IMG/VR virus record: IMGVR_UViG_3300027708_000290
Coordinates: 1-24,292 of that record
Origin: a virus
Reading direction: 5' to 3' (one strand)
Length of the DNA: 24,292 nt
Both the position numbers and the translations under genes were made by a program. The notes below the pieces were generated by a model. It had not been told where the DNA came from, made no database searches, and was given only the letters and a program-made list of their open reading frames with translations. How positions within the stretch are numbered: position 1 is the first letter of the stretch; each line of letters starts with the position of its first letter. Shown one piece after another: positions 14,907 through 24,292 of this stretch.

Positions 14907-15164
14907 TTAAGTTGCTGAAATAGCTGTGCCAGCAGGAGAAATCCAGTTTGTACCATTACCAACAGCAACGCATGGGTTACCAGCTAAGCCATTAGATACA
15001 TAGATTGTCTTGCCAATAGTCTTAGGTGTTAAAGCGTTAGCTGTGGTTACTGTGTAAGCTGGGAGAGTAACAGAACCGGTTACAGAACCGGTTACATTAC
15101 CAGTAATTGAACCGATAAAGCCGTTTGCTGAGGCCACTGGGCCTGTGAACGAGGTACGTGCCAT
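14907..15164 (-). CDS. Small Gly/Thr-rich virion protein, first gene of the tail operon
   Basis: An 85-residue protein starting MARTSFTGPVASANGF. I chose ATG 15162-15164, with AAGGA about ten bases upstream. A further ATG at 15185 lies inside a leader hairpin and adds seven residues without family support. Residues 15-40 hold short repeats (GNVTGSVTGSVTLP), with a matching DNA tandem repeat near 15072. It is the first gene after the minus-strand promoter at 15268-15296. Related small proteins in uncultured phages lie among fibre or decoration genes. Confidence 0.72.
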   Translation of the reverse strand: MARTSFTGPVASANGFIGSITGNVTGSVTGSVTLPAYTVTTANALTPKTIGKTIYVSNGLAGNPCVAVGNGTNWISPAGTAISAT

Positions 15165-15178
15165 AATAAATTGTCCTT

Positions 15179-15210
15179 CATACAAAGATATAGCTCATTA
15201 GTCTTGTATG
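15179..15210 (-). other. Leader hairpin next to the ribosome binding site
   Basis: CATACAA and TTGTATG arms face each other across about 14 bases, extended by a GA/TC pair next to one bulged A. The structure ends immediately upstream of the AAGGA of the 15164 gene, so it could affect ribosome access. Predicted by eye. Confidence 0.4.
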
Positions 15211-15216
15211 CGTCTG

Positions 15217-15248
15217 CCGGGGCAGTCTAATAAGCCGGTTTTCCCCGG
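15217..15248 (-). other. Leader hairpin of the tail operon
   Basis: CCGGGG and CCCCGG arms separated by 20 bases, in the predicted 5' leader between the minus-strand promoter and the first tail gene. No U run follows on the minus strand, so a simple terminator is unlikely. Predicted by eye. Confidence 0.4.
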
Positions 15249-15373: not shown

Positions 15374-15586
15374 ATGAAAGGTGTTAAATGGCTAGGGACA
15401 ATCTTGTGTTTGACTGGCATATGTTTAACGAGTTTTAACGTATACCCTACCAATATTATCCTCAGTTTGATTGGTAGTGCATTATGGACTTGGGCGGGGT
15501 GGTCACAAAAAGACACACCGCTTTTTTTAGTTGAAGCAGTAGCCGTAGCATTTTATCTTGCTGGTGTTATAGCACTTTTTTACTAG
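15374..15586 (+). CDS. Small integral membrane protein
   Basis: A 70-residue, very hydrophobic protein (MKGVKWLGTILCLTGICL). It has three likely membrane segments at about 5-21, 25-43 and 49-69, and a short polar loop WSQKDTP. ATG 15374 is chosen because GGAG lies five bases before it; an earlier ATG at 15335 has none. Similar small membrane proteins occur in aquatic phages. The function is unknown; holin or transporter-fragment ideas are not supported by any motif. It opens the plus-strand cassette, seven bases before the Ntn hydrolase gene. Confidence 0.75.
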   Translation: MKGVKWLGTILCLTGICLTSFNVYPTNIILSLIGSALWTWAGWSQKDTPLFLVEAVAVAFYLAGVIALFY

Positions 15587-15593
15587 AGGCCGT

Positions 15594-16025
15594 ATGACTA
15601 CTATTGTTGGCGATTGGACTAATAAAATACTGGTAGCAGATAGCCAGTTTACCGACTCTGATTCAGGTATTAAATACTTTGAAGACAAGATATTTCCTAT
15701 AGATGGGGGTTGGATGGGTGTGGCAGGTAATTATTGCGATGCGGAAAAAGTTTTAGATTACCTAAACAAAAAAAACAAGACTAAGCCAAAATTAAAATCT
15801 GACAGTTCGTTTTTAAAACTAACTAAAGAGGGGTTGTTTTCTTGTGGAGACGATCTTGAATGGGAAAGGGTGCGAACTTTTATGGCTATAGGCTCAGGGG
15901 CCATGGCTGCGGAGGTTTGTATGCGTATGGGCTTAACCGCTGAAGAAGCTGTTGGCTGGGCCTGTAACGTGGATGCTAACAGCCACGGGCCAATCAAAAC
16001 ATATAGAGTAGAAGATGCCGTATAA
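15594..16025 (+). CDS. HslV/proteasome-beta-like Ntn hydrolase
   Basis: A 143-residue protein starting MTTIVGDWTNKILVADSQFT, matching the opening of HslV (MTTIVSVRR) and proteasome beta subunits. Removal of Met1 would expose Thr2 as nucleophile. Asp16 (VADSQ) and Lys32 (EDKIF) lie close to the catalytic Asp17 and Lys33 positions. The core continues with GWMGVAGNYCDA, then AIGSGAMAAEVCMRMGLTAEEAV, the Gly-Ser-Gly turn and helix of this fold. HslV is about 175 residues, so this is a shortened form. No HslU-like ATPase is in the window, so it may use the host unfoldase or act alone. Its 3' end overlaps the HNH gene by 11 bases. Confidence 0.82.
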   Translation: MTTIVGDWTNKILVADSQFTDSDSGIKYFEDKIFPIDGGWMGVAGNYCDAEKVLDYLNKKNKTKPKLKSDSSFLKLTKEGLFSCGDDLEWERVRTFMAIGSGAMAAEVCMRMGLTAEEAVGWACNVDANSHGPIKTYRVEDAV

Positions 16026-16368
16026 AGATCCTAAAACTAGAAAACTTAAACATGCGGAGTACAGCCGTGAATATTATGAAAAAAATGGTGATAAGGTTAG
16101 AAAACGAGCAGCAGAGCTAAAACGAGAAAAACGTGCTATTTGGAGTGCGTTTAAAAGTACGATTAAATGTACAAAATGTGGGTTTTCTCATCCTTCAGCA
16201 ATTGACTTTCATCATATAGATCGTACAAACCACAAGTCAGTAAATCTTTTAGCACAAAGTGGAAAATACAAAGAAGCATTGGAAGAAATTAAAAAATGTA
16301 TAGCCTTGTGCGCTAATTGTCATCGAATCCACCACCACGAAGAACGCTTAAAGAAAAACCCCGCCTAG
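16015..16368 (+). CDS. HNH endonuclease
   Basis: A 117-residue HNH nuclease. A basic N-terminal helical region (DPKTRKLKHAEYSREYYEK) probably contacts DNA. A structural zinc site is formed by Cys52/Cys55 (CTKC) and Cys99/Cys102 (CANC). The catalytic HH pair is His66-His67 (DFHHIDR), with further His at 103 and 106-108 in CHRIHHH. It could be a free-standing homing-type nuclease, which often sit between phage genes, or take part in packaging. It lies at the cassette end, and its stop codon falls within the terminator hairpin. Confidence 0.88.
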   Translation: MPYKDPKTRKLKHAEYSREYYEKNGDKVRKRAAELKREKRAIWSAFKSTIKCTKCGFSHPSAIDFHHIDRTNHKSVNLLAQSGKYKEALEEIKKCIALCANCHRIHHHEERLKKNPA

Positions 16369-16380
16369 GCGGGGTTTTTC
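16353..16380. terminator. Bidirectional terminator between HNH and capsid genes
   Basis: A perfect 28-base inverted repeat: a GC-rich stem core (CCCCGCC/GGCGGGG) flanked by five A and five T, with TA at the centre. It makes a stem followed by a U run on either strand, so it should stop transcription from the capsid operon and from the plus-strand cassette. The HNH stop codon TAG at 16366-16368 lies at the loop. Confidence 0.9.
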
Positions 16381-16396
16381 AATGGTACTAGGAGTA

Positions 16397-17305
16397 TTAA
16401 GCTCCAGGTGAACCATAGATACCACGTGGGTCAGACCAGCCGAAGCTGTAACGCTCACGAGCTTTGTAACGTACGTTACCTGTATCGAAGTCACCTTCGA
16501 AGGCTGTACGAATTGGAGCACGTTGGAACATCTTGAGACCATTAGGAGCGTCAGTCAAGAGGAACCATGCGTTTACGTCGGTCAAGTAGTGGTTAACTAC
16601 GAAACCATCAGGAATCAAGCCCATAGACTTAATTGCGTTGATGTCATTGTCTGCAGTTGCAGTACGCAATGTAGACTTCATCAAACGCTCAGCAGTAAAT
16701 TGGAGTTCTTTTGGAACTACCAACTTCTTACCAACCAAAGCGATCTTCAAGCCACGCTCATCAGTAAAACCAGCGATATCAATAATACCTTGCTCGAGCG
16801 AAGTTTCGTTCAAGTCAGAGTTTACCAATGGTTTGTTGCTGAAGTTAGGACCTAAAGCTGTTGGGTGAGAATCGGAACACAATTGTACGCCGTCGCCACC
16901 TTTGTAGTTGCTGTCAAACGCATTGTTCAATACGCCAGCACCAAATACTTGCTTGGTGTGAGCCATTGAACGGGCCAAAGCCTTAGTATAGCGGCTTGCC
17001 AAACGGTCATAGAGGTTATCTTCAATCGCTTCTTCAGTGATTGAGAATGCCAATGCGATAGTCTGGTGTGTATAGCGAGCTGTGAAAGATTCTTGTGCAG
17101 AATCATAATTCACACCAGCGCCTTCAGCCTTAACTGGGGCTTGACCGAAGCCGGTCAACATAACTTCTTCTTCAAACGCACGCTCAGAATCTTCGATTTC
17201 AAAAATTTCTTCGTGTTCGTTTTCATAACGCTTGTACTCAAGACCGAATAAAGCGTTAAGACCTGGTTCTAGTTCTTTAACTAGTTGTGCACGTGTAATA
17301 GCCAT
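16397..17305 (-). CDS. Major capsid protein, Mu gpT-like
   Basis: A 302-residue HK97-fold shell protein of the Mu-like major head (gpT) family. Landmarks are an N-terminal helix (MAITRAQLVKELEPGLNALFG), an acidic E-loop-like stretch with EIFEIEDSERAFEEEVML, FSITEEAIEDNLYDRLASRYTKALARSM, VPKELQFTAERLMKS and a final SYGWSDPRG-like segment (YSFGWSDPRGIYGS). The length fits the family. AGGAGCTG upstream and a one-base overlap with the decoration-like gene give tight coupling, as expected for an abundant product. The perfect terminator follows 17 bases after the stop. Confidence 0.9.
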   Translation of the reverse strand: MAITRAQLVKELEPGLNALFGLEYKRYENEHEEIFEIEDSERAFEEEVMLTGFGQAPVKAEGAGVNYDSAQESFTARYTHQTIALAFSITEEAIEDNLYDRLASRYTKALARSMAHTKQVFGAGVLNNAFDSNYKGGDGVQLCSDSHPTALGPNFSNKPLVNSDLNETSLEQGIIDIAGFTDERGLKIALVGKKLVVPKELQFTAERLMKSTLRTATADNDINAIKSMGLIPDGFVVNHYLTDVNAWFLLTDAPNGLKMFQRAPIRTAFEGDFDTGNVRYKARERYSFGWSDPRGIYGSPGA

Positions 17306-19421: not shown

Positions 19422-19895
19422 TTACATGTGCAGAATATCTTCTGGGTCATTAACAATGCCGACAATCTCATCATCATTGAGAATTCGAATCTCGCCACCA
19501 TCAATATCTAAGCGTGCTCCAGCATAACGAGCAAAAATTACCCAATCACCCTCTTTACACCACGGGCCTGTTGGGAATTTGTCTTCGTCTCTATAAGCCA
19601 AAGGACCTACTTTTAACACATATGCACATACTGTGGATAACTGTGTCTTTTTACGGGTCTCTTCTGCCAAGACAATACCGCCTTTAGTTTTTTCTACACC
19701 CCTGTATGGAAGGACAGCAATACGCCAGCCTGTTGGGGTAGGAATACGGTCAAGAACGACCTCATCCAGCTTGGAAGGGTCTAAGCCATCTTCCGTGTAC
19801 GCATCATCTAGCTCAGGGCCTTTTGCGGCTTTTTCGTCAGCCCACTTCTGCTCCAAAGCAGTTAGCGGCTTAGATTCTAATAAATCATTCATCAT
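19422..19895 (-). CDS. GroES-like co-chaperonin
   Basis: A 157-residue protein with a Cpn10 domain at about 55-148. It reads GWRIAVLPYRGVEKTKGGIVLAEETRKK, with the mobile loop 68-80 and the IVL triplet (74-76) that binds GroEL. VLKVGPLAY, a GDWVIFARYAG strand and GEIRILNDDEIVGIV follow, as in GroES. The N-terminal 47 residues are an extra acidic, helical extension not found in the host protein (about 97 residues). No GroEL gene is present. As with T4 gp31, it probably redirects host GroEL to fold the capsid protein; its place just before the scaffold gene fits. GGAGGAGC supports the start. Confidence 0.88.
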   Translation of the reverse strand: MMNDLLESKPLTALEQKWADEKAAKGPELDDAYTEDGLDPSKLDEVVLDRIPTPTGWRIAVLPYRGVEKTKGGIVLAEETRKKTQLSTVCAYVLKVGPLAYRDEDKFPTGPWCKEGDWVIFARYAGARLDIDGGEIRILNDDEIVGIVNDPEDILHM

Positions 19896-20185: not shown

Positions 20186-20332
20186 CTATTTTTTCTTAGC
20201 AGTCTTTGCTGACTTAATAAATGCTTGTTTTGTTGGAGCGCCCTTAGTTCCAGGTTTTCTCATTTTTTCACCTGATCCTTCGGCAATCCGTTTTTTCTTT
20301 GCGGCGATATTGGCATAAAGTCCGGGTTTCAT
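20186..20332 (-). CDS. Small basic protein of 48 residues
   Basis: Read directly from the bases: it begins MKPGLYANIAAKKKR and ends SAKTAKKK. The pattern MKPGLYANI, then EGSGEKMRKPGTKGAP, is one I recognise from many uncultured aquatic phages, where it accompanies the two basic genes found upstream here. ATG 20330-20332 overlaps the stop of the preceding gene by four bases (ATGA), with AGGTGG eight bases before it. An alternative ATG at 20338 adds two residues. It is strongly basic and may bind nucleic acid; the function is unknown. Confidence 0.82.
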   Translation of the reverse strand: MKPGLYANIAAKKKRIAEGSGEKMRKPGTKGAPTKQAFIKSAKTAKKK

Positions 20333-20586
20333 GAGCATTTCCACCTTTTTAAACTTGCTGCTTTACGGGTTGGTTTGCCATTCTCATCTTTCATGGGTCC
20401 TGGCATACCAGACATTCTTGCACAGAATGATTTTTTACGAGCACCGCCCTCAGGCTGGGGAGCCTTTAGATTCGAGCCAGTAGCTTTGTTATATTTAGCC
20501 CGACCTTTGGCGGTAAGCCCAGCGCCCTTAGATACAGGCAACTTCTCACCACGGCCAATTGCCAGCGAAACACCTTTTTTAGCCAT
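20329..20586 (-). CDS. Basic protein, DUF6321-like
   Basis: An 85-residue basic protein with a strongly conserved phage pattern: KGAGLTAKGRAKYNKATGSN, then LKAPQPEGG, KKSFCARMSG, and a final KPTRKAASLKRWKCS. I associate it with the DUF6321 family, hedged because I rely on memory. Cys residues at the CARM and final KCS positions could bind metal or form a disulphide. It overlaps both neighbours. Function unknown; a DNA- or head-interior role is only a guess. Confidence 0.78.
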   Translation of the reverse strand: MAKKGVSLAIGRGEKLPVSKGAGLTAKGRAKYNKATGSNLKAPQPEGGARKKSFCARMSGMPGPMKDENGKPTRKAASLKRWKCS

Positions 20587-23267: not shown

Positions 23268-24292
23268 TTATTTATCTCTCCACTGAGGCGGAACATGCGA
23301 TGGCCTCTCAGTAATTGTCAAATTCTTGCCAAGTTTAGCTGAATAATCATCTAAAAATGCGTTAATTTCTCCAAAATATTTCTCAGGGTTGTTATTTGCA
23401 GTGCCTTTTATCTGTGCAACCCGAGTAAATCCTTCTGGGGTTTTCTCAAGTTGAATAGTAACATGCGGAATACCTTTTTTATCTCTTAATGAAATAATTT
23501 TTGTAGTACCTTTAGCTACCGCACTACAGTAGTTAGAGCCACCAACGCAATGGCCCATGATATTACCTTCCAAGGATAACGCATCCGGGGTGCGGACATC
23601 GACCCAAGTATTTTTTTCTAAAGATAATACAGGCTCTGTTCCGTTAAATAAATCTTTACGACTAAACTTTTCAGGGTTTTTTCTAGCTTCGGCCATTCTG
23701 ACGTGCCATTGCTTGGCTTTTACTGCTACATCTACTACACCCATATTTTTAATTTCAGCCGGAGTGCGAGTAAATAAATAATCCCGCATCTCGTTAATAG
23801 GCAGCATACGGCTTGCACCGCCAGTAGAAGCATAAATAGGTTCGCCTTTAGCAACAGCTTGACGTACATGCGGCTGTAAATCCGTTTGATTTAACAAGCG
23901 TAACAACTTTCCAGCTTCGCCTTCGGCCACGATATCTTTAAATCCTTTTGGTCCGTAAATGCTAGAATATTTTTTAAGATCAGTAGGATCAATGCCAAAA
24001 GTGTTGGCCATTAAAGTGTCTTCCCCAGGAGATTGTTGTTTAATTAGCTTTTCAATATCCTTTTCTATGCCGTAAAGAGTTTTTCCCGTTCCTTTAAGAG
24101 CCGCTGTAGAAAACACTGCTTGAACATTGGTACTAGCGTCATAAGCCCGACGTAAGTTTTTGATTGCTTCTGGATCACCGGCACGAGCTTGAGCTATTAC
24201 TGTGTTATTTGCAATTGAAGGCTGAATACGATTTTCAAGGATTGCTTTAAATAATGGATCGTCTGGAGTGCCGTATTGATTCTGATAGAAGT
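23268..24292 (-). CDS. PcfJ-like protein, 5' end outside the window
   Basis: The frame is open from the stop at 23268 through the right edge, so the gene starts beyond the window; a GTG at 24114-24116 is internal. About 341 codons are visible. The C-terminal part matches PcfJ-like domains: LSLEGNIMGHCVGGSNYC, then IISLRDKKGIPHVTIQLEK, VAQIKGTANNNPEKYFGEI and NAFLDDY. The upstream portion is helical with no domain I can name. PcfJ was first named in a conjugative plasmid and the domain is frequent in phages, but its biochemistry is unclear. Being directly before the portal, this may be the end of a larger polyvalent protein. Confidence 0.72.
   Translation of the reverse strand, partial: FYQNQYGTPDDPLFKAILENRIQPSIANNTVIAQARAGDPEAIKNLRRAYDASTNVQAVFSTAALKGTGKTLYGIEKDIEKLIKQQSPGEDTLMANTFGIDPTDLKKYSSIYGPKGFKDIVAEGEAGKLLRLLNQTDLQPHVRQAVAKGEPIYASTGGASRMLPINEMRDYLFTRTPAEIKNMGVVDVAVKAKQWHVRMAEARKNPEKFSRKDLFNGTEPVLSLEKNTWVDVRTPDALSLEGNIMGHCVGGSNYCSAVAKGTTKIISLRDKKGIPHVTIQLEKTPEGFTRVAQIKGTANNNPEKYFGEINAFLDDYSAKLGKNLTITERPSHVPPQWRDK

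Follow-up and report, generated by a model that had tools for sequence, protein, structure and literature searches.

Phages of the Caudovirales carry a named family of proteins of about 140 residues, PPH, from which helix H2 is missing (PMC8665760). In HslV, BPH and the proteasome, the four flanking helices H1 to H4 mediate contacts between subunits (PMC8665760). PPH corresponds to PHROG 1040. Its members have no propeptide, possess a Thr1/Asp17/Lys33-type centre with an equivalent of the oxyanion Gly47, and are found in tailed phages. They also lack the extra C-terminal domain that distinguishes RPC. No literature on experiments with a phage PPH was found.

The stretch of DNA analysed here, hereafter the window, comprises 24,292 bp of a tailed phage from freshwater (IMG/VR record IMGVR_UViG_3300027708_000290) and is a 24-kb fragment, not a complete genome. 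It encodes a peptidase that has all the PPH properties listed above, and that appears to be a member of this already named but experimentally uncharacterised family, membership being assigned by the described features and the PHROG and not by the alignment of the family authors. It differs from the other PPHs examined by belonging to a freshwater subgroup only 24–32% identical to them, and by the location of its gene in a PPH-HNH cassette.

Three other systems are close. HslV (ClpQ) has the same fold, the catalytic Thr/Asp/Lys and the GSG motif, but the window protein is shorter, is devoid of H2, has no HslU partner encoded with it, and has, at D127..S130, an aligned counterpart of the D..S pair of 20S beta subunits. 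BPH is the next structural match after HslV and has the C-terminal D..S..PI motif in common with the window protein, but in BPH H1 and H2 are both present, together with a long acidic pore loop, and the identity is 14–18% in structural alignments. Phage DSL-LC04 (OR003939) belongs to the same group as the window phage, its annotated major capsid protein (MCP) being 72% identical to that of the window. Its protein annotated as "ATP-dependent protease" is its PPH, only 26–28% identical to that of the window. DSL-LC04 also has PPH and HNH genes that adjoin and overlap on the opposite strand, but their order is reversed and the pair lies beside the gene of the terminase small subunit instead of the capsid gene.

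Organization of the locus

The features of the locus are given in Table 1. Three open reading frames are on the plus strand, whereas the recognisable genes around them, which encode head, adaptor and tail proteins, are all on the minus strand. The cassette thus stands alone on the opposite strand between the head and tail modules, as the earlier note had described, flanked on one side by the capsid gene and on the other by the run of genes towards the SU10-type adaptor and tail. The coordinates, strands and residues given in that note were correct, and family matches and relatives identify the three open reading frames as genuine genes. The presence of capsid, portal and SU10-type adaptor genes places this PPH in a tailed-phage setting.

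Table 1. Coordinates of the cassette, of the adjacent palindrome and of the borders of the slot in the window.
Feature	Position	Strand	Basis
86-aa ORF, left-hand slot border	14907..15167	-	short nucleotide similarity to L091
Membrane protein, 70 aa, DUF6552 (PF20189)	15374..15586	+	hmmscan E 2.8e-10, over cut-off
Proteasome-like Ntn hydrolase, PPH family, 143 aa	15594..16025	+	phrog_1040, AlphaFold, Foldseek, invariant catalytic columns
HNH endonuclease-like protein, 117 aa	16015..16368	+	phrog_3106 7e-22, phrog_2255 6e-20
Palindrome AAAAACCCCGCCTAGGCGGGGTTTTT, 26 bp, perfect; probable bidirectional terminator	16354..16379		sequence read and fold
Major capsid protein (MCP), right-hand slot border	16397..17305	-	Phage_capsid_4 3.4e-15

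The palindrome lies between the HNH and capsid genes, which converge on it, and contains the stop codon of the HNH gene. The hairpin is symmetric, with A5/T5 flanks, an MFE of -21.7 kcal/mol and a z of -5.3, and it probably terminates both converging transcripts. Scans for sigma-70 promoters gave matches at chance level only.

The small membrane protein has a hydrophobic peak of 2.42 (19-residue window). With tblastn, it was found in no relative except the near-identical L001. In other loci (L183-L202, L033, L053, L070 and L072), the gene of a small transmembrane protein ends at the PPH start codon or beside it, often with a 4-bp overlap, the proteins coming from several unrelated families.

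Fold and active site of the peptidase

The peptidase matches phrog_1040, "peptidase HslV family", at 6.8e-27. It has 234 relatives among viral contigs, PPH relatives occur in about 500 phage records, and no relative was found in the bacterial genomes scanned with the window PPH. A single-sequence search of the PDB returned nothing relevant, whereas profile searches returned HslV and BPH as well as alignments with 20S beta subunits.

The AlphaFold model, based on 44 aligned sequences, is a confident Ntn fold (pLDDT 88.6, pTM 0.84). Between the sheets, a single helix (residues 47–58) is present where HslV has two, followed by a strand (72–77), and H3 and H4 are formed by residues 103–126. Helix H2 is absent, as required by the description of the PPH family. 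In the model, the last strand is followed by only a short stretch up to residue 143, the end of the chain, and there is no extra C-terminal domain. The peptidase is shorter than HslV, as remarked earlier (143 versus about 170–180 residues), and the missing part includes H2. The best Foldseek matches are HslV entries (6kui, E 1.7e-7; 4g4e, TM-score by query 0.78), with TM-scores by query of 0.71–0.78 for the top ones, followed by BPH (5ovs). The identity to HslV is about 17–23% in these structural alignments.

Residues T2, T3, D16, K32, G42, G45, G100, G102 and D127 are invariant in the 44 aligned homologues, of which 17 are only 24–32% identical to the window PPH (down to about 25%). From the sequence and the model, Thr2 is assigned as the nucleophile, together with Asp16, Lys32, the oxyanion Gly45, the G100-S101-G102 motif, Asp127 and Ser130. 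The profile search places the last two at the D..S positions of 20S beta subunits, which we take to be Asp166 and Ser169. There is no N-terminal propeptide, as the protein starts with MTT and its relatives start alike. The Ntn, HslV-like peptidase with Thr2, Asp16 and Lys32 proposed in the earlier note is therefore borne out by both predicted fold and residues: the predicted fold is not other than Ntn, and neither Thr2 nor Lys32 is lost in homologues. Given this fold and the retention of the catalytic residues in homologues, the N-terminal-threonine hydrolase chemistry appears intact on paper.

Comparison of the window PPH with its relatives gave a pN of 0.09 and a pS of 0.76, the synonymous sites being saturated. 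These values indicate strong purifying selection on the protein.

The HNH partner

The HNH gene overlaps the stop codon of the PPH gene by 11 bp. Of the 80 loci in the PPH group of the window, 63 have an HNH gene after PPH, and in 58 of these the two genes share the 11-bp overlap. In the DSL-LC04-like group, an HNH gene precedes and overlaps PPH (12 of 32 loci), so that the partnership exists in both gene orders. The metal-binding and HNH residues of the motif CxxC ... DFHH ... CxxCHR are conserved in 67 sequences as CTKC, DFHH and CANCHR. The Mantel correlation between PPH and HNH is modest (0.27), and HNH is absent from many PPH loci, including those of a freshwater group with PPH in a lysis module, of Jersey-type phages, of large phages with PPH near PhoH and lysozyme genes, and of Caulobacter phage CcrC3. 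Judged from these loci, the HNH gene appears to be a frequent companion of PPH and not a requirement.

A mosaic origin of the HNH gene, with its 3' half shared with L091, was considered and was not supported by a segment test. An HNH tree rooted at midpoint put the window with DSL-LC04; this tree was set aside.

Lateral exchange of the cassette

Many freshwater phages (clade B) encode a PPH about 80–92% identical to that of the window; their capsid proteins are only 65% identical to the window's, and their other head and tail genes mostly 30–50%. For PPH, the identity is 86% between the window and clade B versus 84% within clade B; for MCP, it is 65% versus 87%; and for g163, 38% versus 48%. 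Mantel correlations are 0.17 for PPH-MCP and 0.05 for PPH-g163, versus 0.53 for MCP-g163. The capsid tree joins the window to L091 (support 1.0) and not to clade B; the pair falls within a group of 84 relatives that contains no clade B member and the deepest node of which is weakly supported. As PPH is as close to clade B as clade B is internally, while the capsid protein is far outside, the PPH cassette was acquired laterally. A conservation of PPH exceptional beyond that of all structural genes was also considered and dropped, as PPH and MCP are similarly conserved within clade B; the discordance of the window therefore points to transfer. The saturation of pS while pN is low indicates that, besides being under strong selection, PPH was not transferred recently relative to the sampled donors.

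L091 is the closest relative (MCP 95% identical). This 26-kb record contains no PPH, and the same opposite-strand slot is occupied by genes for a GNAT acetyltransferase and a different HNH protein. In L105, a GIY-YIG nuclease is found after the capsid gene. The slot behind the capsid gene is thus a variable, nuclease-rich position. A comparison with relatives devoid of the cassette, suggested in the earlier note, gave the borders of the slot: on the left, short segments similar to L091 in nucleotide sequence, 15136-15164 (the start of the 86-aa ORF) and 15199-15229 (just upstream), and on the right, the capsid gene. The slots compared either carried the cassette or were filled with other genes.

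No window-type PPH was found among the 80 nearest capsid relatives within the sequence examined. Profile searches detected none in the complete genomes of HTVC023P, HTVC027P and Pag-Yong1 (capsid proteins 63–71% identical), positive controls being detected, and none was found in the 60-kb contigs behind L100, L141 and L152. The PPH-HNH cassette is, on this genomic evidence, an exchangeable accessory that is missing from most close relatives. The mobility proposed in the earlier note is supported by the swap in the slot of L091, by the PPH/MCP discordance and by the relatives without PPH. The nuclease may have carried the set, which would fit the PPH-HNH overlap and the presence of another HNH cassette in the slot of L091, but many PPH loci have no HNH gene.

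Another small gene has an unusual distribution. The window encodes an 85-residue DUF6321 protein (20329-20586, minus strand) mostly 90–95% identical to copies in phages with a 65% identical capsid protein, and only 64% identical to the copy of L091. In L052, the DUF6321 gene is located about 1.1 kb downstream of PPH. This small gene, too, seems to be strongly conserved and shared by lateral transfer.

PPH contexts in other phages

The surroundings of PPH vary. In one freshwater group, the next genes are those of a metallophosphoesterase and a GH108 endolysin, with no HNH gene. In other freshwater phages, it lies just upstream of the terminase and portal genes, and in Caulobacter phage CcrC3 directly after the TerL gene. 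It precedes two holin genes and an endolysin gene in Jersey-type phages, and is near PhoH and lysozyme genes in large phages. A role of PPH as a packaging component, considered for its adjacency to terminase genes, was rejected since the contexts are too varied.

A metallophosphoesterase-like gene directly follows PPH in L187, L189, L195, L197, L054, L012 and L052 (phrog_221 in L054). This order occurs in two groups of PPHs that share only about 27% identity, and in Klebsiella phage FBKp34 (L220) a calcineurin-like phosphatase gene is in the same position. The association of PPH with a phosphoesterase therefore seems to be a recurring linkage. In Escherichia phage Bas73, the gene directly upstream of PPH (L204:4711-5004) resembles an AP2-like DNA-binding domain upon reading of the sequence, and gives only a weak match (0.08) to an HNH PHROG.

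Possible functions of the cassette

The PPH family was already known; what is new is the evidence for the exchange of a coupled PPH-HNH cassette and for its dispensability in head assembly. With a probability of roughly 0.62, the locus is a laterally exchanged accessory unit in which the gene of the PPH hydrolase overlaps that of a small HNH protein; it occupies, in the opposite orientation, a variable slot behind the capsid gene, with PPH acting free of HslU. It is presumed that Met1 would be removed by the host methionine aminopeptidase, leaving Thr2 as the N-terminal nucleophile, the pKa of which would be set by Lys32 and Asp16, with Gly45 forming the oxyanion hole. PPH would then act independently of HslU, and not as a complete double ring of the HslV type, by cleaving an amide bond in a specific substrate from the phage or the host, and the HNH protein would help the unit to spread or to reside in the slot. 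By the comparison with relatives, PPH is an accessory that phages exchange and on which purifying selection is strong; it is not a capsid protease, nor is it likely to be a client of HslU.

A narrower version of this proposal is that PPH is a protease for counter-defence or host takeover, breaking down a host protein involved in defence or regulation. It would fit a gene that is accessory, exchangeable, strongly conserved and present in many unrelated phages, but PPH shows no similarity in PADLOC. This version is tentative and on the improbable side, though judged from the accessory distribution it is likelier than a role in lysis or head processing. Laboratory phages in which the role of PPH is tractable include GertrudWoker_Bas73 and Justusliebigvirus alia (E. 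coli K-12).

It is unlikely that PPH is a lysis-associated enzyme acting with an adjoining small membrane or holin-like protein. An upstream small transmembrane protein ending at the start of PPH is encountered in several unrelated groups (19/32 DSL-LC04-like loci and 12/67 loci of the window group, versus a background of 18/149), and PPH is followed by holin and endolysin genes in the Jersey-type phages and by metallophosphoesterase and endolysin genes in the freshwater group. However, the upstream proteins are not of one family, numerous PPH loci lack them, and no membrane segment is seen in the model of the window PPH.

A head maturation or scaffold protease, processing capsid or scaffold proteins of the neighbouring head module, is quite improbable. 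The position of PPH against the capsid gene in the window, and against terminase, portal or TerL genes elsewhere, would agree with such a role. Against it, the window PPH gene faces the opposite way and has a hairpin terminator of its own, and many phages have PPH in lysis, PhoH or other regions. The action on capsid-related proteins considered in the earlier note is not supported, as complete phages with the same head module have no detectable PPH (nor have the three contigs examined), and since these relatives have homologous head genes, PPH appears dispensable for head assembly in related phages.

The likelihood is equally low for PPH being a substitute of HslV that joins host HslU in a complex, diverting or blocking ATP-dependent proteolysis. 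HslV has the nearest solved fold, and the N-terminus MTTIV of PPH is identical to that of the aligned HslV chains. However, the sequence identity is low, and H2 is missing, which is one of the four flanking helices engaged in inter-subunit contacts (PMC8665760). Loss of H2 alone would not exclude rings. No partner unfoldase was found in the window, in agreement with the earlier note, and no AAA_2 domain (Clp/HslU-type) exceeded the curated cut-off in the 14 PPH-carrying phage records searched (the window and 13 further); a sub-threshold AAA protein of 377–384 residues is encoded in 3 of the 14. Use of host HslU, which that note had put forward, is possible but unsupported, as nothing speaks for it and the missing H2 speaks against it; PPH is probably not an HslU client. 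Finally, PPH and HNH forming a functional two-enzyme module, in which a non-ring Thr hydrolase or ligase (a connectase-like monomer) and a nuclease would act against the host or a competing phage and be exchanged as a unit among freshwater phages, is very improbable.

Two further genes of the window were identified. A 157-residue protein with a GroES (Cpn10) domain is encoded in the head module (19422-19895, minus strand), and its homologues in DSL-LC04, HTVC023P, HTVC027P and Pag-Yong1 are found in the same place and annotated as co-chaperonin GroES. A PcfJ-like protein (PF14284) is encoded next to the portal gene (23268-24290, minus strand) and is cut by the end of the window; in DSL-LC04, the PcfJ-like gene lies between those of the portal and of the terminase large subunit.
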